NCBI GenBank assembly: GCA_017744855.1
Contig: JAGIAK010000021.1
Span: 1 to 34,423 of the forward strand
Source: Microbacterium sp.
GTDB lineage: Bacteria; Actinomycetota; Actinomycetes; Actinomycetales; Microbacteriaceae
Direction: 5' to 3'
DNA: 34,423 nt
This document shows positions 2,235-18,439 of this stretch, in pieces. A program made the position numbers and the translations under genes. Position 1 is the stretch's first letter. Every line of letters starts with the position of its first letter. The notes under the pieces are model-generated. The model ran no database searches. It was not told the origin of the DNA and was given only the letters and a program-made list of their open reading frames with translations.

Positions 2235-2897
2235 TCAGTCCGCGGCGGGCTCGGCGAGGTGGGCGATGCGGTCGACGGCCTGACGCACGTGCTCGGCGAT
2301 GACATCGCCGGCGCGATCGGGGTCGCCGCTGGCGATGGCGTCGAGGATGAGGCGGTGGCTGCGCACGTGCTCCGACTGCTCGCGCGGGGGCAGGGCGGCG
2401 TTGGCGGCGGTGATGAAGCCGGTGATCCGGCCGCGCAGCTGGGCGCTCAGCTCGGTGAGGAAGCGGTGGTCGGAGAGCTCGGCGAGCGCCTGGTGGAAGG
2501 CGCGGTCCTGCCGCAGCACCTCGTCCATGTCGCCGGGTTCCGCCGCCTCCATGGCCTCGATGATCGCGCCGAGCCGGGCGGCGGACTCGTCGGTCCAGCG
2601 CTCCTGCACCCGTACCGCCATGAACTGCTCCAGCACGATGCGCAGGCTCGAGATCTCCTCGAGGTCGCGCGCGGTGAGCTCGGCGACGCGGGCTCCGCGC
2701 CGAGGTTCGCGGGTAATCAGGCGCTCCTCGGCGAGGCGGGTGAGCGCCTCGCGCACGGGGATGTGGCTGACGCCGAGTCGCTCGGCGAGCTTGCGCTCGA
2801 CGAGTCGTTCGCCGGGAGCGAGCTCTCCCGCGTGGATCGCGGAGCGCAGCTCGTCGGCGACCTGCTCCGCGATGTTCTGATCCGACACACTGCGCAT
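2235..2897 (-). CDS. GntR-family regulator, FadR/FCD subfamily; probable local repressor
   Basis: A 220-residue DNA-binding regulator of normal FCD-subfamily length. Residues about 8-72 form the winged helix-turn-helix (LAERLGVSHIPVREAL at 37-52). The rest is an all-helical FCD effector domain with the typical metal/ligand pattern Asp131, His135 (DRAFH), His181 and His203. FCD regulators usually sense small carboxylic acids such as sugar acids and are released from DNA by them. The start ATG at 2897 has GAGGAGGG (complement of 2906-2913) eight bases upstream. It is divergent from the MFS transporter gene, and the shared region holds an exact TGCTATAGCA palindrome plus a looser one nearer gntR. 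It is therefore the best candidate for the protein that binds the repeated TGCTATAGCA sites across 3-17 kb and also controls itself. That link is inference. Confidence 0.9.
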   Translation of the reverse strand: MRSVSDQNIAEQVADELRSAIHAGELAPGERLVERKLAERLGVSHIPVREALTRLAEERLITREPRRGARVAELTARDLEEISSLRIVLEQFMAVRVQERWTDESAARLGAIIEAMEAAEPGDMDEVLRQDRAFHQALAELSDHRFLTELSAQLRGRITGFITAANAALPPREQSEHVRSHRLILDAIASGDPDRAGDVIAEHVRQAVDRIAHLAEPAAD

Positions 2898-2962: not shown

Positions 2963-2978
2963 CGATGCTATGGCATCG
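2963..2978. promoter_or_regulatory. Variant operator upstream of gntR
   Basis: CGATGC-TATG-GCATCG, 6-bp perfect arms round a 4-base centre. It differs from the main ATGCTATAGCA motif mainly in the centre (TATG for TATA). On the minus strand it contains TAGCAT, a possible -10, about 65 bases before the gntR start. This suggests weak autoregulation. Confidence 0.5.
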
Positions 2979-2988
2979 GAGTCGAGGG

Positions 2989-3026
2989 TGGACAAATACT
3001 CACATCTGCTAGATGCTATAGCAAAT
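2989..3026 (+). promoter_or_regulatory. Promoter/operator of the MFS transporter gene, with TGCTATAGCA
   Basis: TGGACA at 2989-2994 is a good -35 match. Twelve bases later comes TGCTAGATGCTATAGCA (3007-3023), whose last ten bases (3014-3023) are a perfect palindrome overlapping the expected -10 zone. A bound protein would block RNA polymerase. The whole 38 bases match 32 of 38 positions at 4444-4481, upstream of the ABC operon. Confidence 0.7.
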
Positions 3027-3054
3027 TGATGACCGATCGACGAAGGAGCGAACA

Positions 3055-4401
3055 GTGTCCGATATCCGAACGACCCCCGACGTGCGGAGCGCAGAGGAGG
3101 TGGGAGCCTCCGCCATGAAGAAGGCGATCTGGAGGCTGGGCCCCTTCCTGGGATTGCTGTATCTGGTCGCCTACATCGACCGCAACAACGCGGGCTTCGC
3201 CAAGCTCGAGATGACTCAGGCCCTGCAGATCACGGAAGCGGCCTTCGGGTTCGCCGCCGGCATCTTCTTCATCGGCTACCTCCTCTTCGAGGTGCCGAGC
3301 AACCTGCTGCTGGAACGCTTCGGCGCGCGCAAGTGGATCGCCCGCATCATGATCTCCTGGGGCATCGTGGCCGGCCTCACCGCGTTCGTGCAGGACGAGA
3401 CGCAGTTCGCGATCGCCCGGTTCGTGCTCGGCATCGCCGAGGCCGGCTTCTTCCCCGGTGTGCTGCTGTACCTCACGCTGTGGTTCCCGCGGCAGTACCG
3501 CACGCAGGTGCTCGCAGTCTTCGTGCTGTCCAACCCCATCGCCAACGCCGTCGCGGCTCCGCTGTCGGGATGGATGCTCGAGCTGCACGGTCTGTGGGGA
3601 CTCGACGGCTGGCAGCTCGTCTTCCTCCTGCAGGGCATCCCCGCCGTGCTCCTGGCGTTCGTCGTGTTCTTCTGGCTGCCCGACCGCCCGCAGGACGCCC
3701 GCTGGCTCGATGCGGCGGAGCAGAGCTGGATCACCGACACCCTGGCCGCCGAGACCGCGGCGACCGAGCGCCAGCACGGACGGATGCGGCTGCGCGAGGT
3801 GTTCGGCAACGGCCGCCTGTGGACCCTCATCGTGCTGTTCTTCGGCGTCGTGTTCGGTGCGTACGGACTGGGCATGTGGCTGCCCACCATCGTGAAGAGC
3901 ATGGGCGACTTCTCCAACGCCACCACCGGCTGGCTCGTGGCCCTTCCCAACCTGTGCGCCGCGCTGGTGATGCTCCCGTGGGAGCGGCGGGCTCGCAAGC
4001 AGGGGAACATCCCGCTCCAGATCGGCATCACACTCACGATCACCGCGCTGTCCCTCGTGGCGGCCGTCGCGGCACAGGGGGTCCCCGTGCTCGCCCTCGC
4101 CGCGCTGTGCGTGGGGATGTCGGCGCTGTTCTCGACCACGCCGCTGTTCTGGAGCCTACCGCCGATGGTGCTCACCGGTACCGCCGCCGCGGCGGGGCTC
4201 GCGTTCATCAACTCGGTCGGAAACCTCGCCGGATTCGCCGGACCGTACGCGATCGGCTGGGTGAGCCAGACGACCGGCTCCGCGGTGTGGGGTCTGCTGC
4301 TCGTCTCGGGACTCACGCTGCTCGGCGCCGTCATCGCGTTCGTGCTGAGCCGGCGTGCGGAGTTCACCGCCCCGCCCGAGGCCCTTGCGGACGCGCCGTG
4401 A
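3055..4401 (+). CDS. MFS transporter, anion:cation symporter (ACS) type
   Basis: A 448-residue, 12-helix inner-membrane carrier. The N-terminal pattern YIDRNNAGFA (about residues 40-49) and EVPSNLLLERFGARKW are typical of the ACS family (ExuT, GarP, TtuB and phthalate carriers), which import sugar acids, tartrate and similar organic anions with protons. A long cytoplasmic loop lies mid-protein, between the sixth and seventh helices. The GTG start at 3055 has GAAGGAG at 3042-3048; no upstream start has as good a site. It is transcribed alone from the operator-bearing promoter at 2989-3026. The family's preference for acids fits the sugar-acid enzymes downstream and suggests that free aldonate or uronate enters by this route while oligomers use the ABC system. 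The substrate is not determinable. Confidence 0.88.
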   Translation: MSDIRTTPDVRSAEEVGASAMKKAIWRLGPFLGLLYLVAYIDRNNAGFAKLEMTQALQITEAAFGFAAGIFFIGYLLFEVPSNLLLERFGARKWIARIMISWGIVAGLTAFVQDETQFAIARFVLGIAEAGFFPGVLLYLTLWFPRQYRTQVLAVFVLSNPIANAVAAPLSGWMLELHGLWGLDGWQLVFLLQGIPAVLLAFVVFFWLPDRPQDARWLDAAEQSWITDTLAAETAATERQHGRMRLREVFGNGRLWTLIVLFFGVVFGAYGLGMWLPTIVKSMGDFSNATTGWLVALPNLCAALVMLPWERRARKQGNIPLQIGITLTITALSLVAAVAAQGVPVLALAALCVGMSALFSTTPLFWSLPPMVLTGTAAAAGLAFINSVGNLAGFAGPYAIGWVSQTTGSAVWGLLLVSGLTLLGAVIAFVLSRRAEFTAPPEALADAP

Positions 4402-4443
4402 GCACAGCGCCCATCGTCGCAGATATCGAATCGGACACGGGGC

Positions 4444-4481
4444 TGGACGAATCCCCACAGATGCTAGATGCTATAGCGAAT
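4444..4481 (+). promoter_or_regulatory. Promoter/operator of the ABC transporter operon, with TGCTATAGCG
   Basis: TGGACG (-35-like, 4444-4449), then twelve bases, then TGCTAGATGCTATAGCG (4462-4478). The layout is the same as at 2989-3026, with 32 of 38 bases identical. The palindrome (4469-4478) has one end-base mismatch. It lies about 40 bases upstream of the binding-protein start. Confidence 0.7.
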
Positions 4482-4519
4482 ACCCGTCCCGTTCTTTCGC
4501 ATCCAATGGAGGAGGCACC

Positions 4520-6058
4520 ATGACCCGTCGCCGCACATGGCTGGGAGGGGCCGCGATCATCGCCGCGGCCGCCCTGCTCACCGCCGGCTGCTCGGCATCC
4601 GCACCCGGAGGGGACTCGTCCTCCGGTGGCGGCTCGCTCACCGTGGCCGCAGCCCAGGGCATCCCTCAGCTGAACCCCGCCATCCGCACGTTCGCGTGGG
4701 AGGAGGTGCTGTTCCCGCTGCTGTGGAACGGCCTCACCAAGACCGACGAGTCCGGCAAAGTCGTCGGCGACCTCGCCGAGAGCTGGGAGGCCTCCGACGA
4801 CCAGAAGACCTGGACCTTCACCCTGCGCGACGGTGTGAAGTTCTCCAACGGCGACGCCTTCACGGCCGACGACGCCGTCGCCGCGTTCGAGTACTACCTC
4901 TCCGACGACACCGCGACGCAGGAGAAGAACAAGATCTCCATGGTCACCGGCGTCACGGCCCCCGACGAGAAGACGGTCGTCGTCACGCTCTCCGAGCCGA
5001 TCGCCACCTTCGCCGCCGGCATCGTCTGGGTGAAGATGATCGACGTCGCCGCGCTCGACACGATCGACAAGGAGCCCATCGGCACCGGTCCCTACGTCGT
5101 CGACAAGTTCACCCCCGACGACAGCCTCACCCTGGTGCCGAACCCCGAGTACTTCGGCACGGCCCCCGAGCTCGACAAGATCACCATCGTGAAGGCCGCG
5201 GAGTCCACGGCCGCAGTGACCGGACTGCGCTCCGGCGACATCGACGTGCTGTGGTCGGTGCCCCAGGGCGACGTGGCGGGGCTCGAGGGCGGCGGCGACA
5301 TCGCCCTCGTGAAGCCGGACAACCCCAGCCAGTGGCCGTCGTGGGAGATGGACACCACCTCCCCGCCGTTCAACGACGTGCGCGCCCGCCAGGCGCTCGC
5401 CTACGCGGTCGACCGCGAGGCGATCCTCGAGGCCGCGTACTCCGGGCAGGGCACCGTCTCGCCGACCAACAACGCCCTCGGCGAGGTCAACCCCTGGTAC
5501 GGGGGCGACCTGACCGACTACTCCTACGACCTCGACAAGGCCAAGGAGCTGTTCGCCGAGGCCGGCGTCACCGAGGGCAGCACGCTGACCTGGTGGGGCA
5601 TCGCCGGGCAGTACCCCGAGTGGAACACCAGCGGCGAGATCCTGCAGGCGAGTCTGAAGGAGATCGGCATCACGCTGAAGATCGACAACAACGACATCGG
5701 CACCTGGGTGGACTCCTTCTACCCCGCAGGCAAGAGCTACCCCGGCTACATCGTGCCGAACTTCCAGTCGACGCCGCCGGAGCCCGCGTACTCGCTGAAC
5801 TTCTACCTCGACGGCCGCTGCGAGTGCAACTGGGTCGACCCCGACTTCCAGACGGCGTTCGCCGCGGCCGTGGCCGAGCCAGACGAGACCGCGCGCGCCG
5901 AGAAGTGGGGCACCGTGCAGACGATCATCAACCAGCAGGTGCCGCTGATCGTGCCGCTGCAGTCCACCGTCGTCACCGCCACCGGCACCCGCGTGTCCGG
6001 CGTGTGGGTCGAGGGCGGCGGACAGCTGCACCTCGAGGGCGCGCAGCTGAAGGGTTGA
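4520..6058 (+). CDS. ABC transporter substrate-binding lipoprotein, family 5 (SBP_bac_5)
   Basis: A 512-residue extracytoplasmic binding protein tethered by lipid. The lipobox is LTAGC with Cys24, after an RRR-containing n-region. The mature part has the family-5 pattern of Opp/Dpp-type receptors: an N-terminal strand, WEASDDQKTWTFTLRDGVKFSNGD, and VRQALAYAVDRE-like segments near the middle (here ARQALAYAVDREAI). In this family, members bind oligopeptides, nickel or oligosaccharides such as cello- and xylo-oligomers and plant-derived sugars. The start ATG 4520 has GGAGGAGG at 4508-4515, four bases away. It is the first gene of a tightly packed operon with two permeases and a fused ATPase. Given the enzymes nearby I infer an oligosaccharide ligand; a peptide ligand cannot be ruled out. 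Confidence 0.92.
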   Translation: MTRRRTWLGGAAIIAAAALLTAGCSASAPGGDSSSGGGSLTVAAAQGIPQLNPAIRTFAWEEVLFPLLWNGLTKTDESGKVVGDLAESWEASDDQKTWTFTLRDGVKFSNGDAFTADDAVAAFEYYLSDDTATQEKNKISMVTGVTAPDEKTVVVTLSEPIATFAAGIVWVKMIDVAALDTIDKEPIGTGPYVVDKFTPDDSLTLVPNPEYFGTAPELDKITIVKAAESTAAVTGLRSGDIDVLWSVPQGDVAGLEGGGDIALVKPDNPSQWPSWEMDTTSPPFNDVRARQALAYAVDREAILEAAYSGQGTVSPTNNALGEVNPWYGGDLTDYSYDLDKAKELFAEAGVTEGSTLTWWGIAGQYPEWNTSGEILQASLKEIGITLKIDNNDIGTWVDSFYPAGKSYPGYIVPNFQSTPPEPAYSLNFYLDGRCECNWVDPDFQTAFAAAVAEPDETARAEKWGTVQTIINQQVPLIVPLQSTVVTATGTRVSGVWVEGGGQLHLEGAQLKG

Positions 6059-6059
6059 C

Positions 6060-7022
6060 GTGACGCTGTCCATCCTGCGCCGGGTGGCGATCAGCATCGG
6101 CATGCTGATCGCCACCTCGCTCCTCGTGTTCGTCGTTCTCCGGCTGCTGCCTGGCGACCCCGTCATCACCCGGCTCGGCTCGACGCCGGGCGTGGATGCC
6201 GAGATGCTCGATCGCCTGCGCAAGGAGGCCGGCCTCGACGCGCCCATCATCGAGCAGTACCTGCGCTGGATGGGCGGCGTCTTCACGGGCGACTTCGGCC
6301 AGTCGTACTTCAACCAGTACTCGGTCACCGAGCTCATCTCGCAGCGGCTCCCCGCCACGCTCGAGCTCACCCTGATCGGCATCCTGCTGGCCGTGGCGAT
6401 CGCCGTCCCCGCGGCCGTGATCGCGTCGCTGCGCCCGCTCGGGGTCGTCGACCGCGTGCTCACCGCGATCTCGACGGCCGGCATGGCTCTGCCGCAGTTC
6501 CTCATCGGCATCGTGCTGATCGTCGTGTTCGCCGTGCAGCTCAAGGTGCTGCCCGCCCGCGGATTCACGCCCTTCGGCGAGGACCCGGCGCAGAACCTGC
6601 TGCGCATGATCCTGCCCGCGCTCACCCTGGCCTTCGCCGCCGCGCCGCTGCTGATGCGATTCCTCAGGGCGTCGATGGTCGAGGTGCTCGACGCGCCGTA
6701 CATCCGCACGGCCCGCGGCAAGGGGCAGACCGCGTCCGGCGTCGTGCTCGGGCACGCGCTGCGCAACGCGCTGATCCCCGGGCTCACGATGCTCGGCCTC
6801 ATCGTCGGCTACACGCTCGGCGGCGTGGTGATCGTGGAGTACGTGTTCGGCGTGCCCGGACTCGGCTCCCTCGCGATCGACGCCGTGTTCAAGCGCGACT
6901 ACGCCGTGCTGCAGTCGGTGGTGCTGCTGATCTCGGCGATGTTCATCCTCACCACGCTCGTGGTCGACCTGCTCTACGGCGTGCTCGACCCGCGTCTTCG
7001 TGCAAGGAGCAGCCGTGGCTGA
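6060..7022 (+). CDS. ABC transporter permease, DppB/OppB type
   Basis: A 320-residue inner-membrane permease with six predicted helices. The N-terminal helix is followed by the family motif LLPGDPV and a periplasmic segment. The cytoplasmic EAA loop reads YIRTARGKGQTASGVV and contacts the ATPase. The GTG start at 6060 begins one base after the stop of the binding-protein gene, so the two are translationally coupled. The end overlaps the next permease by eight bases. Confidence 0.93.
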   Translation: MTLSILRRVAISIGMLIATSLLVFVVLRLLPGDPVITRLGSTPGVDAEMLDRLRKEAGLDAPIIEQYLRWMGGVFTGDFGQSYFNQYSVTELISQRLPATLELTLIGILLAVAIAVPAAVIASLRPLGVVDRVLTAISTAGMALPQFLIGIVLIVVFAVQLKVLPARGFTPFGEDPAQNLLRMILPALTLAFAAAPLLMRFLRASMVEVLDAPYIRTARGKGQTASGVVLGHALRNALIPGLTMLGLIVGYTLGGVVIVEYVFGVPGLGSLAIDAVFKRDYAVLQSVVLLISAMFILTTLVVDLLYGVLDPRLRARSSRG

Positions 7023-7859
7023 CACCCTCACCCTCGCCCTGCGCTCCGCGCGGCCCCGACGTCGCATCGCCTGGGGGTCGTGGATACCGCTCGCGCTGCT
7101 CGCGCTCATCGTGCTGGCCAGCGTGCTCGCCCCGCTGCTCGCGCCGTTCGACCCGTCTGCGCAGTCCTCCGACCGGTTCGCGAGCCCGTCGGCGGGGCAC
7201 CTGTTCGGCACCGACGAGCTCGGCCGCGACCTGTTCAGCCGCGTGCTGCACGGCGGTCAGCTCACCATGGCGATCGCCGGCGGAGCCACCCTGGTGGCGA
7301 TGCTGCTGGGCATCGCGTGGGGCATGGCGGCGGCGTTCGGCCGCGGCGTCCTCGACGAGGTCCTCATGCGCCTCGCCGACACCGTCATGGCGATCCCGCA
7401 GATCCTGTTCGCGCTCGTCTTCATCTCGGCGTTCGGCGCCGACCCCGTGAAGCTGGCCGTGATCATCGGCATCCTGCTCACCCCGACCACCGCCCGCCTG
7501 GTGCGGTCCTCGGTGCTCAGCGAGCTGCAGGAGGACTACTTCACCGCCGCCGTGGCCTTCGGGTCGACGCGCGCGCGCCTGCTGTTCACCGAGGTGCTGC
7601 CGAACGCCCGCGGTCCCATCGTGGTGCAGGCGGCGATCAACGCGGCCAACGCGATCCTGCTCGAGGCGTCGATGAGCTTCGTCGGCCTCGGCATCGCACC
7701 GCCCGAGGCCACGTGGGGGACGCTCGTGCAGCAGGGCTACCAGAAGATGTACCAGTCGATCGGGTACGTGCTGTTCCCCGCGCTGTTCATCTTCGTGACC
7801 ATCTGGCTGCTCAATGTGCTCGCCGATCAGTTCGGCGGCGACCGGAAGGGGAAGGGCCG

Positions 7860-7863
<4 letters not shown>
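7015..7863 (+). CDS. ABC transporter permease, DppC/OppC type
   Basis: A 282-residue second permease. It has a short cytoplasmic N-terminus, a first helix (IPLALLALIVLASVLAPLL), the OppC/DppC signature FGTDELGRDLFSRVLHGG, and an EAA loop around DYFTAAVAFGSTRARLLF. I set the start at GTG 7015 rather than GTG 7000, because AAGGAG at 7004-7009 sits five bases upstream. This gives an eight-base overlap with the first permease. It ends in an ATGA overlap with the ATPase gene. Confidence 0.92.
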
Positions 7864-9616
<1,753 letters not shown>

Positions 9617-9620
<4 letters not shown>

Positions 9621-11836
9621 CCATCATGGAACCGGAGGCGGGGGCATCGGCCGTCGCGGATGTGGGCGACGTCACGGTGCGCTCCGCCGGCCGCCGCCGT
9701 GCGCTCATGGCCGGTCTCGGCGCGGTCGCGATCGGCGCGGCCGGTGCTCTCGCGAGCGCGCCGCCCGCACACGCCGCCCCCGTCGCGGCCGGTGCCAAGG
9801 ACGTCACGAGAGCGGAGTCGGTCGCCGACCTGGCGCGACTGAAGGCACGTGACGGCGAGGTGGCGATCGTCGCCGGCTACCGCACGCCTGGCGACGCCGG
9901 GCTGCTCGTGTACGTGGGCAGTGAGGACAAGGTGGTGACGGCCAACGGCGGCACGGTGATCGCCGGCGCTCGCGACACCCGCTGGATGCTGCAGCACGAC
10001 GGGACCGTCGACTTCCGGGTCTTCGGTATCGCCGGCCCCGAGACGGCGGCCGACGACGCGCTCGATGCCATGGTGAACGACCCCCGCATCCGCCGGATCG
10101 AGGCCGGTACCGACCTGTTGTTCCAGAGACGGCACCGCTTCACGCGCTCCCACCTGGAGATCGACTTCGGCGGTCACCTCGTCACGACGGACGGCATCGA
10201 GAAGAACACCCACGACAATCCGTTCGGCGCCGTCCTCTTCTTCACCGGAGTCTCGAAGGACGTCGTGGTCGAGCACCCGCTCGCCGAACCGTGGCCCGAG
10301 TTGACGGATGCCGTAGCCGTGCCGGACGCATCCCGGTTCCCCGTCGACTCCTGGTGGGCGGTGCAGTGCGCTCCCGTCGCCGGGGGAGGCGCGGACGAGC
10401 GCGAGCTCCAGCGCTTCGTGCGGGTGACGCAGCAGATCGACGCCACGCACATCCGTATCGACTACCTCAACGGCTGGCCGCTGGACACGGGGCGAAAGCT
10501 CACCTGGCGGCAGATGGACCCCGTCGCCGGCATCCGCATCGCGAACATGCGATTCCTCGGTGCCGGACCGTTCGACGGCCCCACAGACGGCTCGTTCCCC
10601 GACTCGCGCGAGCTCACCGGATCCCACCCGATCGCGTTCGAGTACGCCATCCACTGCGACGTCGCCGACGTGCACGCGAGCCGCACCTGGTGGCCAGTCA
10701 TCATGCGGCGATGGAACACGCACTTCACGACAGAACGCTGCTCCGTCGAGAACCCGCCGACGGTGTTCTACGGGGGCGCCGGCTACCTCACGCAGCAGAT
10801 CTACAGCCTCTACGGGAGGGTGAGCGACTGCACCTCGTCGAACGCGCGGCACCTCAACGACCTCACGGCCAGCGCCTACTGCATCGTCGAGAACTGCCAT
10901 GGCGACGGCGACGATCAGGGCGGGAACCCCTTCACCACGCACGGACAGTACGAGCACGACCTCACCTTCATCGGCAACTCCGGGCTCATGGACATCGCGA
11001 ACTCCGGCGCGCAGTGGGGCACCTCGGCGAAGCGCATCACCGTGCGCGACCATGTGTGCTCGTGGTTCGTCGCCGGCACGAAGATCAGCGATCTGACCCT
11101 GGAGAACGTGCGGGTCATCGGCCGCTCGACCTTCGATCCGCAGGCGACCATGACCATCAACGCCGACGGTGCGCAGGTGCGCGGCTGTACTGCGGGGCTG
11201 CTGGCCATCGGACAGCGGTCCTCGCGCTCCTCGCGCCCGACGGTCATCGAGGACTCCACCTTCGCGCTCCCCAAGGATCAGGTGCTCGTCCAGACACCGG
11301 TCACGACGCCGGTCCGCTTCGTGGACTGCACCATCACGGGGATCGACGGGGTCAAGGCGCGGGGCTCCGGTCCCGTCGAGTTCGTCGACTGCCGCCTCAG
11401 CGGTCCGGCATCGGGGGCGCCCATGGAACTCGGCGCCGCACGGGTGACCATCCGCGGAGGTTCGGTGCGCGACGTGCGGCTGAGCGCCACCGCTGTGCGC
11501 GACCAGCTCGTCGCCCTGGACGGGGTCGAGCTCGGCACGGAACGGACGGACGGCGCACTGCTGACCAGGTCCGCAGGTCCCGGCGTGGTCACGTGGCGGG
11601 TGAGCGGGGTGAGCTCGACGGTGTCGAAGGGCGTCGCGCACCTCGAGATCGCGACCGGCGTGAACCACGCCCGCGTCACCGGCAGCCAGTTCACCGGTGG
11701 GCGACTGCGGCTCGCCGACGGCTTCGCGGAGCCCTCGACGCTGCTCTACAGCGACACCGTCGAACGCGGCGTCGAGACCGCGCTGCCCGAGGCCGGCGCG
11801 CGCGTGGTGCTCGCCGACGTGCTGACGAGCGCCTGA
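9617..11836 (+). CDS. Tat-exported beta-helix / tailspike-like protein (paralogue 2)
   Basis: A 739-residue secreted protein, paralogous over its full length to the product at 11-2152. It has a longer n-region, then GRRRALMAG (Arg26-28), a hydrophobic stretch and an AHA cleavage site near residue 53. The conserved core includes ADDALDAMVNDPRI, ERELQRFVRVTQ, GGAGYLTQQIYSLYG, SNARHLND, NCHGDGDDQGGNPFTTHGQ, GNSGLMDIANSGAQWG and HVCSWFVAG. Conserved His, Asp, Glu and Cys residues cluster in the central part. Phage genes are absent, so a bacterial polysaccharide lyase, glycosidase or binding protein is more likely than a tail fibre. GAGGAGG (9604-9610) lies six bases before the ATG, which overlaps the ATPase stop. 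Being co-transcribed with the importer, it probably prepares or captures the imported ligand. Confidence 0.85.
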
Positions 11837-11870
11837 TCGGCGGCATCATGGAGAACAGGGAGGTCACCGC

Positions 11871-13262
11871 GTGAACGACACCGCCTCGCACACCCGCATC
11901 GGCGACAGCATCCGCATCCCCCGCACGACGGCGCGGATCGGCATCGCCCGTCGCGACATCACGCCGCCCGTCGGCATCCGCGCCAAGAACTGGGGCCCCG
12001 CCGACTGGGAGCGCTCGGAGGGCGCGCACCGGCCGTTCACGCTCACGGCGCTCGCCGTGGTCGGCGGCGACGGCCGTCCGCGTGTGCTGCTGGCGGTCGA
12101 CGGCACCTGGTGGCGCCGCGTCGCCGACGAGCGGGGCGTGCGCGGCGCGATCCTCGACGGCCTGGGACTGGAGCCCGACCAGTTGCTGCTGTCGCTGTCG
12201 CACACCCACGCCGGGGCCGTGCTGTGCGCGGCCGACGCGCACCTGCCGGGCGGTGAGCTCATCCCCGGGTACCTCGAAGCGCTCGCCGGGGCGGGTGTCG
12301 CCGCAGGGCGGGAGGCCCTCGACGGCGTGCGCCAGGGTCTCATCGAGTGGACCTCCGGTCGCTGCACGCTCGCCGCCGACCGCGAGCTCGACGTCGACGG
12401 ACGGCCGCTCGTCGGCTACAACCCCGGCGCGACCGCCGACGACACGGTGATGATCGGCAGGCTCAGCGTGGACGGCGTCGTGTGCGCGACGCTCGTGAAC
12501 TACGCCTGCCACCCGACCACGCTCGCGTGGCAGAACCGCGAGGTGTCTCCGGACTACGTCGGGGCGATGCGCGAGCTCGTCGAGGCCGCGACCGGCGCCC
12601 CGTGCCTGTTCGTGCAGGGTGCGTCGGGCGAGCTGGCGCCCCGCGAACAGTACACCGGAGACGTGGACGTGGCCGACCGGCACGGGCGCTCGCTCGGACA
12701 CGCCGTGCTCGCCGCCCTCGACGCGCTGCCGACGCCGGGGGAGCAGCTGACGCTCGACGGCGTCGTGGAGTCGGGGGCGCCGCTCGCGATCTGGACCGGG
12801 CGCGCCGTCGACGGCGGTTCCGGCGCTGCGGGCTCGCTGACGAGCGTCGAGCTGACGCTGCGCGACCTCCCCACGCTCGACGAGCTCGCCGAGGAGTGGA
12901 AGGACATCGACCCGCGCTCCCGCGAGGAGCGGCTCGGTCGTGCGCGCAACCTGCGCGACGGCTACATCGACGGCCCGACCGTGCAGCATCCGGTATGGGC
13001 GTGGCGCCTGGGCGACGCCGTGATCGTGGCGCACCCCGGCGAGGCCTACTCGCGGCTGCAGACCACGCTGCGCGCCCGGTTCCCCGAGACGCCGGTCCTC
13101 GTGATGAACCTCACCAACGGACCGGGTTTCGTGTACCTGCCGACGCGCGACGCCTACGATCGCGGCGCGTATCAGGCGTGGCAGACCCCGCTCGCCCCCG
13201 GCGCTCTGGACGCGCTGGAGAGCCACGCCGTCGCCGTGGTCGCCGGTCTTCTCGGCCCCTGA
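11871..13262 (+). CDS. Neutral/alkaline ceramidase-fold hydrolase, probably not a ceramidase
   Basis: A 463-residue protein like the catalytic N-terminal domain of neutral/alkaline non-lysosomal ceramidases (PF04734-type). Visible family marks are ARIGIARRDITPPVG (residues 21-35), SLSHTHAG with likely zinc ligands His111 and His113, and NYACHPTT with His214. The segment QGASGELAPR (249-258) sits where ceramidases have a G-D-x-S-P core, so the nucleophilic serine position is Ala256 here. No signal peptide is visible and the C-terminal ceramidase domain is missing, so it should act in the cytoplasm on something else, perhaps an amide- or ester-decorated sugar. The GTG start at 11871 follows AGGGAGG. 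It is the last gene of the operon; an inverted repeat follows its stop. Confidence 0.75.
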   Translation: MNDTASHTRIGDSIRIPRTTARIGIARRDITPPVGIRAKNWGPADWERSEGAHRPFTLTALAVVGGDGRPRVLLAVDGTWWRRVADERGVRGAILDGLGLEPDQLLLSLSHTHAGAVLCAADAHLPGGELIPGYLEALAGAGVAAGREALDGVRQGLIEWTSGRCTLAADRELDVDGRPLVGYNPGATADDTVMIGRLSVDGVVCATLVNYACHPTTLAWQNREVSPDYVGAMRELVEAATGAPCLFVQGASGELAPREQYTGDVDVADRHGRSLGHAVLAALDALPTPGEQLTLDGVVESGAPLAIWTGRAVDGGSGAAGSLTSVELTLRDLPTLDELAEEWKDIDPRSREERLGRARNLRDGYIDGPTVQHPVWAWRLGDAVIVAHPGEAYSRLQTTLRARFPETPVLVMNLTNGPGFVYLPTRDAYDRGAYQAWQTPLAPGALDALESHAVAVVAGLLGP

Positions 13263-13277
13263 CGCCCCGGATCGGGT

Positions 13278-13336
13278 TTCGAGTAGCGTGAATGGTCCTG
13301 TTTCGGCCTCGGATCGAGCCAATCACGCTACTCGAA
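13278..13336. terminator. Long inverted repeat, probable terminator or intergenic hairpin
   Basis: TTCGAGTAGCGTGA (13278-13291) pairs perfectly with 13323-13336. Past one A-A mismatch a further TGG/CCA pairs, leaving a loop of about 23 bases. It lies 16 bases after the stop at 13262 and separates the ABC operon from the next operator and promoter. There is no U-tract, and the loop is large for a terminator, so a repetitive intergenic element is the alternative. Confidence 0.65.
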
Positions 13337-13364
13337 TGCGCGGAGGGGATACCCCCGACTACAC

Positions 13365-13376
13365 TTGCTATAGCAA
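13365..13376. promoter_or_regulatory. Operator TTGCTATAGCAA upstream of the SDR/dehydratase operon
   Basis: A perfect 12-bp palindrome, the longest exact form of the repeated TGCTATAGCA motif. It ends 16 bases before the ATG at 13393, on or just upstream of the expected transcription start, so a bound regulator should repress. Confidence 0.75.
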
Positions 13377-13392
13377 AAAGCAGAGGAGAGAC

Positions 13393-14154
13393 ATGACCGC
13401 TCAGGCCCCCGTCGCGATCGTCACCGGCGGCTCCGCCGGCATCGGCTGGGAGATCGGCCAGCGCCTGGCCGCCGACGGCTACCTCGTCGTCGCCGCCGAC
13501 CGGGTGCCCGGCCTCACCGCCGGCGAGAACCCCGCCGGCATCCTTTGGCGTGAGCTCGACGTCACCGACCACGCCGGCGTCGACCGCGTCTTCGGCGAGA
13601 TCGAGGCCGAGCTCGGCCCCATCGAGGTGCTCGTGAACAATGCCGGCATCCAGCGGCACCGCGGCATCGAGGACCTCACCTGGGACGAATGGTCGTCCGT
13701 CGTCGACGTCAACCTGCACGGCGTGTTCTCTGCTCTGCAGGCGGCGGGGAAGCGGATGCTGGCGCACGGCGGCGGACGCATCGTGAACATCTCGTCGATC
13801 TCCTCGCGGGGCTCCGCGGGGCGCGCGCCCTACGCCACCACCAAGGCCGCCGTCATCGGCCTCACCGCCACGGCCGGCGCCGAGTGGGCGGCCAGGGGCG
13901 TGCGCGTCAACGCCGTCGCCCCCGGCTACGTCGACACCGGCGTCTTCCGACAGGGCGTCGAGCAGGGCACGCTCAGCCTCGACACGATCCTCGCCCGCAT
14001 CCCCGCGAAGCGCCTGGCCGATGCGAGCGAGATCGCCGCGGCCGTGAGTTTCCTCGTCTCCGACCAGTCCCGGTACATGAACGGCCAGACGCTCTACGTC
14101 GACGGCGGTTTCATGGTGGACTACGGCGTCCCCCTCGCGAAGAAGCCCGAATGA
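13393..14154 (+). CDS. SDR-family NAD(P)-dependent oxidoreductase
   Basis: A 253-residue classical short-chain dehydrogenase. Nucleotide-binding TGGSAGIG is at 11-18, an acidic Asp36 ends strand 2 (which favours NAD over NADP), NNAG is at 82-85, and the catalytic set is Ser134, Tyr147 and Lys151. The PG motif (APGYVDTG) and the C-terminal YVDGGF are present. The start ATG 13393 follows GAGGAGAG by two bases; longer forms would cross the operator and lack a binding site. It overlaps the dehydratase gene by ATGA. By position next to a dehydratase it could oxidise the 2-keto-3-deoxy acid at C4, as KDF and L-KDR dehydrogenases do, or oxidise the sugar to the lactone. This assignment is inference. 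Confidence 0.92.
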   Translation: MTAQAPVAIVTGGSAGIGWEIGQRLAADGYLVVAADRVPGLTAGENPAGILWRELDVTDHAGVDRVFGEIEAELGPIEVLVNNAGIQRHRGIEDLTWDEWSSVVDVNLHGVFSALQAAGKRMLAHGGGRIVNISSISSRGSAGRAPYATTKAAVIGLTATAGAEWAARGVRVNAVAPGYVDTGVFRQGVEQGTLSLDTILARIPAKRLADASEIAAAVSFLVSDQSRYMNGQTLYVDGGFMVDYGVPLAKKPE

Positions 14155-15233
14155 CCGAGATCTCCCGCGTCGACACCGCCACCGCGGTGCTTCCGCTCCC
14201 CGCTCCCCTGCACCTGGGGGCGATGACCGTGACCAGGCGGGAGTACAGCGCGGTGCGCGCCGTCACGGACGACGGCGTCGAGGGCGTCGCGTACTGCCTG
14301 TCGCGCGAGGCGCCGATGGCCGAGATCGTCGAGCGGCTCGTGGCGGGCCATGCGGTGGGAGCGGATGCCGACGACCCGGCGGCGACCTGGGAGCGGATGC
14401 TGCGCGGCAGCGCCATCGTCGGTCGTGTCGGTCTGGTCCGCCGCGCGATCGGCCTCGTCGACATCGCGCTCTGGGACATCGCCGCCCGTCGGGCAGAGGT
14501 GCCGCTGTGGCGGCTGCTCGGCACCGGGGACGCTCCGCGCGACGCGATGCTCGTCGCCGCATACCCCTCGCCGTCGCGGACCCCGCGTGAGGTCGCCGAC
14601 GAGGTGCTCGCGCAGGCGGACGGCTGGGCGCAGGTGAAGATCTCTCGTATTCCCGATCCGGCATATATGCGCGAGCTGATCGCCATGCTCACGGCGGAGC
14701 TGCCGGCCGAGACCGGTCTGGTGGTCGACGTGGGCTTCGGCTGGGCCGACGCCGATGCGGCCCTCGCGGAGATCGCCCAGTGGGGCGATCCTCAGCTCAC
14801 CTGGCTCGAGGACCCGCTGCTCCCCGAGGACGCGACCGGCTGCGCCCGCATCCGCCGCGAGTCCGGTCTGACGGTGGCGGTGGGCGATGAGGTGACCGAT
14901 CCCACCGTGCTCCGCGCGCTCGTCGAGGAGGGTGGTGTCGACGTGCTGCGGCTCGACGTCGTCGCGATCGGCGGCGTGACCCCTGCGCGCGAACTGATCG
15001 CGTGGGCGGGGGAGCGCGGCGTGCCGGTCTCAGGTCACGTCTATCCCGAGGTCACCGCGCACCTGGGCATCGGCATGGAGACCTTCGCCCGCGGTGTGAA
15101 CCCCTACGACCCGGCGCCCTCGTTCGTGATCGGAGGCCCGGCGTTCGACGGGCGGGTCGTGCCGCCGGCCGCGCCGGGGCTCGGGTTCACGCTCGATCCC
15201 GCAGTGTTCTACTTCGACGGGAGTGCACGATGA
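14151..15233 (+). CDS. Enolase-superfamily (mandelate racemase/muconate lactonizing type) enzyme, probable sugar-acid dehydratase
   Basis: A 360-residue enzyme with an N-terminal capping domain (1-125) and a barrel carrying the metal ligands Asp193 (VVDVGFGW), Glu220 (WLEDPL) and Asp246/Glu247 (VGDE). His296 (SGHVYPE), with Asp268 behind it, could be the His-Asp base of the mandelate racemase subgroup. Such enzymes remove water from aldonates to give 2-keto-3-deoxy acids. The second strand reads QVKIS: Lys163 is present, but the second Lys of the usual KxK is Ser165. The chemistry should therefore rest on the His-Asp dyad, as reported for rhamnonate dehydratase. It lies between two SDR genes, overlapping both by ATGA, so the three are one translational unit. 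Confidence 0.88.
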   Translation: MTEISRVDTATAVLPLPAPLHLGAMTVTRREYSAVRAVTDDGVEGVAYCLSREAPMAEIVERLVAGHAVGADADDPAATWERMLRGSAIVGRVGLVRRAIGLVDIALWDIAARRAEVPLWRLLGTGDAPRDAMLVAAYPSPSRTPREVADEVLAQADGWAQVKISRIPDPAYMRELIAMLTAELPAETGLVVDVGFGWADADAALAEIAQWGDPQLTWLEDPLLPEDATGCARIRRESGLTVAVGDEVTDPTVLRALVEEGGVDVLRLDVVAIGGVTPARELIAWAGERGVPVSGHVYPEVTAHLGIGMETFARGVNPYDPAPSFVIGGPAFDGRVVPPAAPGLGFTLDPAVFYFDGSAR

Positions 15234-16033
15234 CCGCTTCTTCTTCTGTTGGCGTGCGCAGCGCCGTGGTGACCGGGAGCGGCAAGGGCATCGGCCGAGC
15301 GATCGCCGAGCGGCTGACCGCCGACGGCTGGATCGTCGTCGGCCTGGAGCGCTCCCCCGGCTCGGGCACGGTCGAGGCCGGCATCTGCGCCGAGGTCGTG
15401 CTCGGCGACTCCTCTTCTCGGGAAGCCCACAGCAGGGCCGCGGAGGCCGCGATGGCGAGGGCACCGCTGGCCGGCTGGGTCAACAACGCCGGGATCACCA
15501 AGCGCACCCCGCTGCACGACCTCGACGAGGACGTGGTGCGCGAGGTCATCGGCATCAACGGGTTCGGCTACGTGTGGGGCTGCTCGGCGGCCGTCACGGC
15601 GTTCATCGACCAGGGGGTGCCCGGCGCCATCGTGAACATCGGCTCGATCCACGGGCGCTCGAGCTTCCCCGATCACGCGGCCTACGAGTTCACGAAGGGC
15701 GGCATCGACGCGCTCAGCCGCAGCGTCGCCGTGACCTACGGCGGCCTCGGGATCCGTGCCAACACCGTGGCCCCTGGCGGCGTGCGCACCCCGCACCTGG
15801 AGGCGCAGATCGCCGCGGCCGCCGACCCGGCCGCGGAGGAACGGGCCCTCGCCGAGGGTCCGCCGATGGGGCGCATCGCCCGCGCGGAAGAGGTCGCGGC
15901 GATCACCGCGTTCCTGTTGTCCGACGAGGCGCCGTACGTCACGGGGCAGTCGATCGCGGTGGACGGAGGCTGGACGGCGTCCTTCGGCGACGTCTCCGTC
16001 GACCCGGCGCTGCGCGCCCGCTTCGACTCCTGA
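15230..16033 (+). CDS. SDR-family NAD(P)-dependent oxidoreductase
   Basis: A 267-residue classical SDR. TGSGKGIG is at 15-22, Glu40 ends strand 2 (NAD preference likely), NNAG at 85-88, and the catalytic residues are Ser139 (IGSIHG), Tyr152 and Lys156 (YEFTK). The C-terminal AVDGGW is present. The start ATG 15230 overlaps the stop of the dehydratase gene. It is only distantly similar to the SDR two genes upstream, so the two probably act at different steps, such as sugar 1-dehydrogenase and keto-deoxy-acid dehydrogenase. Which is which cannot be told from sequence. Confidence 0.92.
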   Translation: MTASSSVGVRSAVVTGSGKGIGRAIAERLTADGWIVVGLERSPGSGTVEAGICAEVVLGDSSSREAHSRAAEAAMARAPLAGWVNNAGITKRTPLHDLDEDVVREVIGINGFGYVWGCSAAVTAFIDQGVPGAIVNIGSIHGRSSFPDHAAYEFTKGGIDALSRSVAVTYGGLGIRANTVAPGGVRTPHLEAQIAAAADPAAEERALAEGPPMGRIARAEEVAAITAFLLSDEAPYVTGQSIAVDGGWTASFGDVSVDPALRARFDS

Positions 16034-16063
16034 CCCCGCCCCTCTGGGCAGGGCCTGGGCTTG

Positions 16064-16121
16064 AGTTGGCACTTTGTGCTGTTCCCTCGCGAGAATTCCC
16101 GCCACAGCTGCCATGTGAGCG
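16064..16121 (+). repeat. 58-bp intergenic repeat, copy A
   Basis: Starts AGTTGGCAC and ends CCATGTGAGCG. Copy B at 16147-16204 has the same length and 49 of 58 identical bases. GCAC-TTT-GTGC inside could form a small hairpin. It lies between convergent genes and no coding reading fits. Confidence 0.75.
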
Positions 16122-16146
16122 GATGCTGGAGCGGGGCGCGGGATTC

Positions 16147-16204
16147 AGTTGGCGCCTAGTGCTGTTCTCGCGCGGCGATTCCCGCCACAACTGCCATGTG
16201 AGCG
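16147..16204 (+). repeat. 58-bp intergenic repeat, copy B
   Basis: A direct repeat of copy A after a 25-base spacer. The left CAGTTG pairs with CAACTG near the right end, giving a larger hairpin than in copy A. The first two-thirds varies more than the last third (27 of the final 28 bases are shared with copy A). Confidence 0.75.
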
Positions 16205-16249
16205 ACTGAGGTTGCGAGGGCCCCGGCGCGCAGGGGCGGATGCCGCGGC

Positions 16250-16630
16250 TCAGGCCTTGAGCATGGAGGCGCGGGAGATGCGGCCGTCGACCACGTCGAA
16301 CGTGGCGATCGTCTCGGTCGCGACGCCGGCGTTCACGACCTGCTCCTGCGCGACGACCCAGCGCGTACCGAAGAGCACGGTCGCCTCGATCACGCACGAC
16401 AGCTCGCGGTTCTGCAGGCGCGGCTCGTAGAACGCGCGGATCGCCGCGGCCCCGACGATCGGCTCCGGCGCGACGCCGGTGATGACGGCATCCTCCGCAT
16501 AGGTGGCGACGAACGCGTCGAGGTCGTGCGCGTTGAAGGCGTCGAGCTGCGCCTGCACGGTGTCGAGCGCAGAACGCTCGAGCGCAGAACGCCCCTGCGC
16601 GGAATGGTCGGGTCCGGTGCGGTCAGTCAA
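16250..16630 (-). CDS. SnoaL-like / NTF2-fold protein
   Basis: A 126-residue single-domain protein of the SnoaL-like polyketide cyclase / NTF2 superfamily. The N-terminal helix (VQAQLDAFNAHDLDAFVATYAEDAVI) followed by a curved sheet (GAAAIRAFYEPRL, TIATFDVVDGRI) is typical. Members bind small hydrophobic or carbonyl compounds and include isomerases, cyclases and non-catalytic binders. The start is TTG at 16630, supported by GGAGGAG (complement of 16637-16643) six bases upstream. It overlaps the SDR stop by eight bases, so the two are translationally coupled. A role in the same pathway, perhaps isomerising or binding a keto intermediate, is inference. Confidence 0.78.
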   Translation of the reverse strand: MTDRTGPDHSAQGRSALERSALDTVQAQLDAFNAHDLDAFVATYAEDAVITGVAPEPIVGAAAIRAFYEPRLQNRELSCVIEATVLFGTRWVVAQEQVVNAGVATETIATFDVVDGRISRASMLKA

Positions 16631-17372
16631 TGCGGACTCCTCCGTTGACGTCGTAGGTGGCTCCGGTGATGAACCGGGCGCGCTCGGAGGCGAGCGACGC
16701 GATGATCCAGGCGACGTCGGCCGGCTGGCCGAACGCGCCGAGGGGGATCGACGACTCGAGCTTCTCGCGTCCGGCGCCCTGCAGCTGGTCGGTGATCGCG
16801 CTGGCGACGGGGCCGGGGGTCACGGCGTTGACGCGGATGCCCTCCGTGGCCAGGTGCCGCGCGAAGCTGCGGGTGATGGCGAGGAGGGCGCCCTTGCTGG
16901 CGGCGTAGTGCATGCCGGTCTGCAGTGCGCCGACTTGGCCGGCGATGGAGGAGATGTTCACGACCGAGCGGTCGCCGTCGGCCGCGCGCAGCAGCGGGAG
17001 GGCCGCGCGGGTGAGCAGGAAGGTGCCGCGCGCGTTGGTCTCCAGCACGAGGTCCCACTCGTCGATGTCGATGTCGTCGAAGGGCGTGTACGGGCACACG
17101 CCGCCGTTGTTGACGAGCACGTGCAGCGCACCCCAGGCGGCCGTGACCTCGTCGACGAGCGCGGAGACGGATGCCGGGTCGCGCAGGTCGAGCCGCGAGA
17201 CGTGCACCTCGGCGGCGCCGGCCGCGCGGCACTCCTCGGCTACGCGGGCGGCTTCGCTCTCGCGCCCCGCGTAGGTGATCCACAGGGCGTAGCCCTCGCG
17301 GGCGAGTTCGAGGGCGGCGGCCGTTCCGATGCCGGAACTGGCCCCGGTGAGCAGGGCGCGGCGAACAGTCAT
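16623..17372 (-). CDS. SDR-family NAD(P)-dependent oxidoreductase
   Basis: A 249-residue classical SDR. TGASSGIG is at 9-16, NNGG (a variant of NNAG) at 88-91, and the catalytic residues are Ser142, Tyr156 and Lys160. The PG motif (TPGPVASA) and the final YDVNGG are present. Strand 2 ends in TYAGRES, with Arg rather than an acidic residue, which suggests NADP. The ATG at 17372 has no Shine-Dalgarno sequence. TAGCAT, a TANNNT -10, ends seven bases before it and forms part of the TGCTATAGCA operator, so the message is probably leaderless and repressed directly. It is divergent from the 2-hydroxyacid dehydrogenase gene. Confidence 0.9.
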   Translation of the reverse strand: MTVRRALLTGASSGIGTAAALELAREGYALWITYAGRESEAARVAEECRAAGAAEVHVSRLDLRDPASVSALVDEVTAAWGALHVLVNNGGVCPYTPFDDIDIDEWDLVLETNARGTFLLTRAALPLLRAADGDRSVVNISSIAGQVGALQTGMHYAASKGALLAITRSFARHLATEGIRVNAVTPGPVASAITDQLQGAGREKLESSIPLGAFGQPADVAWIIASLASERARFITGATYDVNGGVRID

Positions 17373-17380
17373 GACGCAAA

Positions 17381-17390
17381 TGCTATAGCA
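17381..17390. promoter_or_regulatory. Operator TGCTATAGCA for the SDR/SnoaL operon
   Basis: A perfect 10-bp palindrome centred 13 bases from the minus-strand ATG. It overlaps the putative -10 TAGCAT (minus strand) of the SDR gene. Together with the site at 17431-17440 it forms a divergent control region, the palindromes being 40 bases apart. Confidence 0.72.
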
Positions 17391-17423
17391 AGAGCGAGGT
17401 CGAAGAAACCGTTTCCTAAATCT

Positions 17424-17440
17424 TGCTAGATGCTATAGCG
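17424..17440 (+). promoter_or_regulatory. Operator TGCTAGATGCTATAGCG for the dehydrogenase/FAH operon
   Basis: The same 16-base core, TGCTAGATGCTATAGC, as at 3007-3022 and 4462-4477. TGCTA occurs twice, seven bases apart. TAGCGT (17436-17441) could be the -10, ending eight bases before ATG 17450. Unlike the other two copies it has no TGGACR upstream. Confidence 0.7.
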
Positions 17441-17449
17441 TTTGTGGAC

Positions 17450-18439
17450 ATGGCCGAACCCTTCATCCTCATCACGGATTGCGATCTCCCCGGCGATGCC
17501 GCCGAGCAGACGCTGCGCGCCGCGGGATTCCGTGTCGAACGCGCCCCCGACACCTCGTTCGAGACGCTCGCCGCCCTCGGTGCGGAGGCCGACGGCCTCA
17601 TCGTGCAGTGGCATCGCATCGACGGGGAGCTGATGGACCGGATGCCGAACCTGCGCATGATCAGCCGCCTCGGCATCGGCTACGACATGATCGACGTCGC
17701 CGCGGCCACCGCCCGCGGCATCGCCGTCGCGAACACCCCGAGCTACTGCATCGAGGAGGTCGCCGCGCACACGATCGCCATGATCATGACGCAGGCCCGC
17801 GGCCTCCCCGACTACGATCGCGCTCTGCGCGCGGGCGAGTGGAAGCCCGTCGCGGCCCGCCCCATGGCCGTCCGCCCCTCGCGCACGACGGTCTCCGTGC
17901 TCGGATTCGGCCGGATCGGCTCGCTCGTCGCTCGCGGATGCCGCGCGCTCGGCTTCCGCGTGCTCGTCGCCGACCCGTACGCCCCGGCCGACGCCGTGCG
18001 CGCCGCCGACTGCGAGCCCGTCGAGGTCGCCGACGCCATCTCCGCCGCCGACCTGCTCACGCTGCACGTGCCGCTCACCGAGGCGACGCGCCACCTCATC
18101 GACGCCGACAGCATCGCCACGATGCGCGAGGGCGCCGTGATCGTGAACACCTGCCGCGGCCCGCTGATCGACGAGCACGCCCTCGTCGACGCGCTGCGCA
18201 GCGGACGGATCGGCGCCGCGGCGCTCGACGTGTTCGAGGTGGAGCCGCTGGCGGAGGATGCCGTGCTGCGCGACGCGCCGAACGTGCTGCTCACCCCGCA
18301 CGCGGCCTGGTACTCGCCGGAGGCGCTGGAGGACCTGCCCGTGCACGCGGCGCAGAACCTTGTGGAGTTCCTCGGCGGACGTGCGGTGCCGGCCATCCTC
18401 AACCGCGAGTACGCCACGGCAGGGATCACGACGGCCTGA
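17450..18439 (+). CDS. D-isomer-specific 2-hydroxyacid dehydrogenase
   Basis: A 329-residue NAD-dependent enzyme interconverting a 2-hydroxy acid and a 2-oxo acid. The Rossmann motif LGFGRIG is at 151-157, Asp175 follows strand 2 (NAD preference), and the catalytic triad is Arg236 (NTCRGPLID), Glu265 (FEVEPL) and His284 (LTPHAAW). Length is normal for the glycerate/phosphoglycerate/formate dehydrogenase group. The most likely start is ATG 17450; GTG 17444 is possible. A TTG at 17423 would put the operator inside the coding region. There is no Shine-Dalgarno, so it is probably leaderless. It lies 56 bases ahead of the FAH-type gene. It may handle the hydroxy or keto acid released by that hydrolase, or a sugar 2-keto acid. 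Confidence 0.9.
   Translation: MAEPFILITDCDLPGDAAEQTLRAAGFRVERAPDTSFETLAALGAEADGLIVQWHRIDGELMDRMPNLRMISRLGIGYDMIDVAAATARGIAVANTPSYCIEEVAAHTIAMIMTQARGLPDYDRALRAGEWKPVAARPMAVRPSRTTVSVLGFGRIGSLVARGCRALGFRVLVADPYAPADAVRAADCEPVEVADAISAADLLTLHVPLTEATRHLIDADSIATMREGAVIVNTCRGPLIDEHALVDALRSGRIGAAALDVFEVEPLAEDAVLRDAPNVLLTPHAAWYSPEALEDLPVHAAQNLVEFLGGRAVPAILNREYATAGITTA

Follow-up and report, generated by a model that had tools for sequence, protein, structure and literature searches.

The window analysed here is the whole 34,423-nucleotide stretch of Microbacterium sp. contig JAGIAK010000021.1. It carries a predicted sugar-acid breakdown cluster in which a 10-bp palindrome, TGCTATAGCA, is found six times (three exact copies and three copies with one mismatch), heading six gene units. 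One of these is gntR itself (2235..2897, minus strand), which encodes an FCD-type GntR regulator (Pfam GntR 2.1e-21, FCD 1.2e-23) and is the predicted source of the protein that binds the palindrome. The others are, on the plus strand, the gene for a major facilitator superfamily (MFS) transporter (3055..4401), a peptide/nickel-type ATP-binding cassette (ABC) importer of four genes (4520..9620), a unit of sdrA (13393-14154), an enolase-superfamily dehydratase gene (14151-15233) and sdrB (15230-16033), and a unit headed by a D-isomer 2-hydroxyacid dehydrogenase gene (dhdh, 17450-18439); sdrC (16623-17372) lies on the minus strand.

The exact copies of TGCTATAGCA lie at 3014-3023, 13366-13375 and 17381-17390. 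TGCTATAGCG, which differs from it by one letter, is found at 4469-4478 and 17431-17440, and TGCTATGGCA, also with one mismatch, at 2966-2975, where the minus-strand reading is TGCCATAGCA. These positions agree with the first-pass annotation, which had described the copy before gntR as a looser one. Its proposal of an operator repeated before transcription units stands, but the units number six rather than five, because gntR itself carries a site. All six sites are intergenic and lie 8-68 nt from the start codon, just where the annotation had placed them, in gaps directly upstream of the genes. Across 100 dinucleotide shuffles of the window, which set the chance level, the mean number of matches to TGCTATAGCA was 0.06 (largest 1), compared with the six observed. 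When the window was scored with a weight matrix derived from 25 related loci (see below), exactly these six sites came out highest, with 21.2-26.3 bits; the next-best stretch scored 8.0 bits (13 bits lower), and the maximum over 20 mononucleotide shuffles was 16.0. The genome assembly (3.14 Mb, 214 contigs, 79% complete) contains eight sites with at most one mismatch, of which six are in the window and the other two, both one-off, are at C146:8164 and C167:3857. The objection that the palindrome might be common genome-wide therefore fails for the assembled part. Nothing beyond these two extra copies speaks for chance or a dispersed repeat, an origin that is extremely unlikely and was rejected on the grounds of the shuffle expectation, of flanks that differ between copies while the core stays constant, and of conservation in related loci.

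The placement of the sites relative to predicted promoters is informative about their function. At the MFS and importer promoters, TGGACA or TGGACG is found 17 nt before GATGCT: the MFS promoter is predicted with -35 TGGACA at 2989-2994 and -10 GATGCT at 3012-3017, and the importer promoter with -35 TGGACG at 4444-4449 and -10 GATGCT at 4467-4472 (both on the plus strand). Their operators (3014..3023, exact, and 4469..4478, TGCTATAGCG) are accompanied by an extra half-site, TGCTA, at 3007-3011 and 4462-4466, respectively. The exact operator of the sdrA unit (13366..13375, plus strand) follows a predicted -10 TACACT at 13360-13365; directly upstream of this promoter, at 13278-13338, an inverted repeat, TCGAGTAGCGTGA ... 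TCACGCTACTCGA, was noticed by eye. The exact operator of sdrC (17381..17390, minus strand) forms, with one more T, the predicted -10 TAGCAT (17380-17385), 7 nt before the ATG. The operator of the dehydrogenase unit (17431..17440, plus strand) is TGCTATAGCG, with an extra TGCTA at 17424-17428 and a predicted -10 TAGCGT at 17436-17441. Among the 12 sdrC and dehydrogenase promoters listed, 6-8 nt separate the ATG from the end of TAGC[AG]T, made up of the right half and one more T, and no Shine-Dalgarno sequence was seen; since the -10 lies so close to the start codon with no evident Shine-Dalgarno sequence, these genes look leaderless. In genome G061, a single operator lies between the two start codons, CATGCGGAAAATGCTATAGCATTTCCGCATG.

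Because the palindrome overlaps predicted -10 boxes and its right half plus T can give TAGC[AG]T, it might be taken for a core promoter element specific to one sigma factor. However, the 10-mer is symmetric, its distance to the predicted -10 varies (after TACACT at sdrA, over GATGCT at mfs), and it is nearly missing from genomes of the genus that lack this gntR (6/175), so this explanation is very unlikely. It could also be supposed that the GntR protein binds the sites but activates, or represses some units and activates others. FCD regulators are capable of both modes, and a dual-mode precedent is found in Corynebacterium glutamicum, where GntR1/GntR2 are reported to repress gntP and gnd and to activate ptsG via a site centred at -60. 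In contrast, the distance to the start codon is 8-68 nt for all sites described here, and they overlap the predicted -10 or the start, which is the position of a repressor; we regard activation as quite unlikely. The placement of the sites fits a repressor that would cover the -10 and the start.

We suggest that the six copies of TGCTATAGCA are, very probably, operators of the adjacent FCD GntR protein. This protein would keep gntR and the five transport and catabolic units repressed at the -10 or start until released by a metabolite. The protein would bind as a dimer, with one monomer per TGCTA half, and repression would be steric, by coverage of the -10 and start regions. A pathway metabolite would then release it from the DNA. 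The inducer is likely to be an acid intermediate, because the hydrolase of the cluster is near L-2,4-diketo-3-deoxyrhamnonate hydrolase and the dehydratase belongs to the MR_MLE group; it would bind near the FCD metal site. Control may be tighter where a third TGCTA sits 2 nt upstream of the operator, as at the MFS, importer and dehydrogenase genes; extra half-sites of this kind are known for GntR regulators (PMC4494728). Self-control via the fixed imperfect site at gntR may be weaker.

The comparison of related loci supports the proposed regulon. When species genomes were scanned with the GntR protein, 27 loci were obtained: 25 from Microbacterium (73-87% identity) and two from distant proteobacterial relatives, at neither of which a TGCTATAGCA-type site was found. 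The operator of gntR in the window (2966..2975, minus strand) has the one-off form TGCCATAGCA, as it has at all 25 Microbacterium loci (26/26 gntR genes including the window). Counting sites up to 200 bp upstream at the 25 loci and the window, a site was present at 26/26 gntR, 10/10 sbp (the importer binding-protein gene), 7/7 sdrC, 5/5 dhdh, 14/16 mfs, 15/21 sdrA and 7/24 cer (the gene of a ceramidase-fold protein) genes. The cer sites carry the letters of the gntR site (TGCTATGGCA) in four of seven cases, and those at L030, L032 and L035 are shared with gntR. The letters are constant per promoter, being TGCTATAGCG at 10/10 sbp sites and exact at 14/14 mfs and 15/15 sdrA sites. The third TGCTA, 2 nt upstream, is found at 14/14 mfs, 10/10 sbp and 5/5 dhdh sites (26/70 distinct sites of the 25 loci), and at none of the gntR, sdrA, sdrC or cer sites of these loci and the window. 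Gene order varies among the 25 loci and the sites stay with the starts of the units, which is the conservation in orthologous loci that the first-pass annotation had called for; a single regulon with the FCD GntR protein as predicted binder, as it had proposed, is the reading best backed by comparison. Three features go beyond what it described: a site that departs from the published FadR-subfamily consensus, a third half-site at three promoter classes, and a fixed imperfect site at gntR.

The distribution of the site in the genus points to the same regulator. Of 198 Microbacterium genomes, 23 contain gntR (called at E <= 1e-40) and 28 contain the exact 10-mer; the 10-mer is present in 22/23 genomes with gntR and 6/175 without it (Fisher 9e-23, uncorrected for shared descent). 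In all 23 gntR-positive genomes, gntR is preceded by a site that is exact or one letter off and encodes the helix SHIPVREAL, so that a site at the regulator's own gene, the mark of autoregulation, is found in 26/26 loci and 23/23 genomes. The other exact copies are nearly all within ~20 kb of gntR. Copies far from it or on another contig were found in G196, G060, G023 and G162, and in the first two of these the displaced site precedes an sdrB homologue (84-85% identical). In two gntR-negative genomes, G168 and G087, the site stands in front of a different FCD GntR gene. Its product, a distant relative with the helix SPTPVREAL (30-33% identical), might be thought to bind the sites in general, with the local gntR as a passenger: in both genomes its match is preceded, at a distance of about 120-133 bp, by the same core, ATTTGCTATAGCAAAT, and an SPTP-type relative in G389, outside the genus sample, also has the 10-mer. 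However, the site tracks the local gntR in 22/23 genomes, and the SPTP type, for which no genus-wide search was made, was found beside the exact site in only 2/28 genomes (the same two, both lacking this gntR), so we consider this explanation unlikely. As a side observation, the FCD GntR proteins at L086, L087 and L121 form a group of their own (SPTPVREAL/I), and TTGCTATAGCA precedes their genes; L087 (one-off) and L121 have a second TTGCTATAGCA copy about 1.6 kb off, and this is a separate regulon.

At the family level, three of 299 genomes match the regulator (E <= 1e-35): the genome of the window, G225 and G326. The gntR products of the latter two are 53-56% identical and both the sites and the helix are kept; G225 has two gntR genes in tandem. 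At L101 (8654-10353), two gntR orthologues sharing about 55% identity with that of the window stand in tandem, with TGCTAGATGCTATAGCA upstream. In a motif-only search with the 12-mer TTGCTATAGCAA, nine of 396 order genomes, including that of the window, and 16/394 class genomes contained it. G748 and G707, two members of one genus in another family, have sites around a gntR whose product is 59% identical, with enzyme and secreted-type homologues that are 51-80% identical, and G389 has sites beside the SPTP-type FCD GntR gene.

Several results weigh against our interpretation. No site was found within 200 bp at 6/21 sdrA and 2/16 mfs genes. The two mfs genes (L018, L027) stand behind importer genes and five of the sdrA genes (L024, L027, L030, L032, L035) lie 35-220 bp behind cer, and because they follow these genes they may be operon-internal; the sdrA miss at L011 is not explained in this way. 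The 25 loci were chosen via gntR and overlap the 198-genome sample. Moreover, G140 has gntR and no exact copy, the stretch from gntR to the dehydrogenase gene holding two one-off sites instead, and four gntR-negative genomes (G191, G117, G042, G173) have the 10-mer and no related GntR gene in a 13-20 kb stretch. Since regulator and enzymes travel together, as seen for the ceramidase-fold gene, which was found only in gntR-positive genomes, co-occurrence alone cannot single out gntR. Promoter boxes and starts are predictions, and the -10 GATGCT is weak. Farther away, no FCD GntR gene was found near the 12-mer in 5/8 of the other order genomes (1.5 kb examined in G762 and G724), and, leaving aside the genome of the window and G389, a GntR domain lies no more than 1.5 kb from the one site examined per genome in 0/14 class genomes, six of which hold more than one site. 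Far outside this order, the presence of the 12-mer by itself thus does not prove a GntR operator. Four class-level loci (L258, L260, L262, L263) share a longer conserved element in which the spacing between TTGCTATAGCAA and TCGAACAT is constant. No GntR domain lies within 1.5 kb, and the element probably belongs to a different system.

The regulator itself was confirmed to consist of a GntR winged helix (PF00392, 75.8 bits, cut-off 27) and a C-terminal FCD domain (PF07729, 84.3 bits, cut-off 24.3). In its structural model (mean predicted local distance difference test score, pLDDT, 85.2), the best fold match is McbR, and further top matches are Brucella 7u5q, AlkR, PmiR and Atu1419, which are VanR-group and other FCD proteins. 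The helix reads S44-H45-I46-P47-V48-R49-E50. The protein retains R31, E34, R35, S44, R49 and E50 and has H45, I46 and P47, which are invariant in 19 aligned sequences; His45 is found in 23/23 gntR-positive genomes. D131, H135, H181 and H203 are likewise invariant in this alignment, and we take them to be the ligands of the FCD metal site. According to the Atu1419 study (PMC7797058), helix 3 of this Agrobacterium fabrum regulator works via Ser44, Arg45, Thr46 and Arg49; Arg45 contacts G3 of ATGTATACAT, and a G3/C8 change abolishes binding. The helix of AlkR aligns gap-free with that of our regulator, with Arg45 opposite His45, and the study of AlkR (PMC12042122) describes Arg45 as required for full binding, with poor binding by an R45 mutant. 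In place of the VanR-group mark of Arg45 reading G3, the window has His45 in the regulator and C3 in the site. Judged by this analogy, the regulator likely tolerates or reads C3 by virtue of His45, which takes the place of the G3-reading Arg45 of Atu1419. Arg45 is not universal in FCD proteins, McbR having Ile at the aligned position. The window holds a second GntR-type gene (21573-22280), whose helix, SRTPVREAM, has Arg45, in contrast to the His45 of gntR.

FCD regulators beside G3-form sites were predicted to carry Arg45. TKGTATACMA is present in 69 of the 198 genus genomes, and at 16 of 70 loci chosen among the matches listed (30 + 40) a related GntR gene lies within 1.5 kb, with Arg45 in 14 and Lys45 in 2; at L156, L164 and L171 it is not directly downstream of the site. 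A tally over all fetched loci, limited to perfect palindromes of the form T[GT][GC]TATA[GC][AC]A up to 330 bp upstream of the domain start, gave 37 distinct protein-site pairs in seven FCD groups. Five groups combine Arg/Lys45 with TGGTATACCA and two combine His/Pro45 with TGCTATAGCA, none being crossed (Fisher p = 0.048 on groups). TCATATATGA (Lys45, L234), GTGTATACAC (Arg45, L221), CGGTATACCG (Arg45, L137) and loci L133, L156, L164 and L171 fall outside this tally. A hidden Markov model of the helix, run over three genomes, gave 63 hits in 62/63 loci (the overlap of L250 and L255 counts one gene twice), with Arg45 in 47, Lys45 in 2 and neither in 14. Because Arg45 is so frequent among these hits, its presence next to G3 partly reflects what is usual in the family; what counts is that both C3 groups lack it.

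It is conceivable that FCD proteins have a two-state specificity switch, in which Arg/Lys45 reads TGGTATACCA and His/Pro45 reads TGCTATAGCA, with one base pair inverted and two distant groups in the second state; we judge its chances to be even. G061 holds both states, SRIPVRDAL with TGGTATACCA and SHIPVREAL with exact and one-off TGCTATAGCA; if the switch is real, a single residue and a single base pair would keep its two regulons apart. On the other hand, of the 14 hits without Arg/Lys45, three are of the SHIP or SPTP types and the other 11 have no TGCTATAGCA upstream, nine of these having no AT-rich perfect palindrome upstream at all. One of these 11, the regulator at L202 in G061, is itself of SPTP type (SPTPVREAM) and speaks against the rule unless its sites lie elsewhere. 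Because of these 11 regulators, the rule linking residue 45 to base pair 3 is for now a lead. It would make sites easier to predict for FCD regulators without Arg/Lys45 and would be a source of orthogonal repressor-operator pairs for use in actinobacteria.

Turning to the genes of the island, the MFS transporter (Pfam MFS_1) is likely of the sugar-acid type, its best NCBIfam match being 'D-galactonate transporter' (298.5 bits, under the cut-off of 395). The importer comprises a binding protein (sbp, 4520-6058; all NCBIfam matches under cut-off) and, identified by eye from the translations, permeases (6060-7022 and 7000-7863) and an ATPase (7860-9620). A secreted-type protein (9617-11836, plus strand) and cer (11871-13262, plus strand) follow, both without a Pfam match or an own site in the window. 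The cer product has no sequence match in Pfam, NCBIfam or PDB; its model (mean pLDDT 67.8) has a fold match to neutral ceramidases (E about 1e-11), and its gene is found in 20 of the 198 genomes, every one with gntR. The long proteins of 9617-11836 and 14-2152 look related by eye, have secretion-type N termini and no Pfam match, and their homologues recur at related loci; the region upstream of 14-2152 lies beyond the window and hence outside the site counts. The products of sdrA, sdrB and sdrC match adh_short_C2, the dehydratase MR_MLE and the dhdh product 2-Hacid_dh_C. A small SnoaL-like gene (by eye; 16250-16630, minus strand) lies beside sdrC, and between it and sdrB, at 16050-16215, a ~65-bp stretch was seen by eye in two imperfect copies. 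The fumarylacetoacetate hydrolase (FAH)-type hydrolase (18496-19353, plus strand) best matches 2,4-didehydro-3-deoxy-L-rhamnonate hydrolase in NCBIfam, and PDB 8gsr (1.5e-55) is nearest to it among the named pathway enzymes. Equivalog cut-offs were not reached by the hydrolase (255.9/500 bits) or the dehydratase (124.3/500 for talarate/galactarate dehydratase). The cluster resembles sugar-acid pathways of the 2,4-diketo-3-deoxy-L-rhamnonate type in grouping a short-chain dehydrogenase/reductase (SDR), an enolase-superfamily dehydratase, an SDR and an FAH hydrolase, but differs in that all stay under equivalog cut-offs and that ceramidase-fold and secreted-type proteins are present. It is a patchily distributed catabolic island with a clean six-unit regulon, of which regulator and operator are sharply predicted. 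To our knowledge, the operator is not known for the majority of FCD regulators.

A literature search, in which supplements and RegPrecise were outside the scope, never found GntR together with GCTATAGC, nor such a regulon; from their titles and the opening lines of their abstracts, papers containing TGCTATAGCA do not seem to deal with operators. Among known systems, Atu1419 is a two-domain FCD regulator with a 10-bp TATA-core palindrome (ATGTATACAT) over -10 boxes, controlling itself and catabolic genes, as proposed here; however, its G3 is read via Arg45, whereas C3 stands with His45-Ile46 in our case, and it is a tetramer with looping and three palindromes, compared with six units here (PMC7797058). 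AlkR of Pseudomonas aeruginosa (VanR group, PDB 9isw) is also an FCD repressor over -10 regions but has the site ATTGTCAGACAAT, with GT...AC and Arg45 (PMC12042122). HypR of Streptomyces coelicolor is an actinobacterial catabolic repressor of the FadR subfamily with sites near the -10 or start, and its site logo is CTNTGC(A/C)ATGTCAC, not TGCTATAGCA (PMC6608401). The FadR-subfamily regulons of Suvorova et al. (2015) share palindromes, a 2-nt-spaced class, autoregulation and extra half-sites whose distance to the site centre is 7-12 nt, but their usual boxes are TKGT/ACMA (PMC4494728), whereas TGCT/AGCA is found at all six sites here, bar one-off letters, with the key G-C pair inverted. Because these authors themselves set apart members whose motifs differ, NanR and BioR among them (PMC4494728), our placement in the FCD/FadR subfamily rests on the domains and not on the operator boxes. 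The regulon as such adds one more case to a well-known type; what is new about it is the inverted base pair together with the His45 helix.

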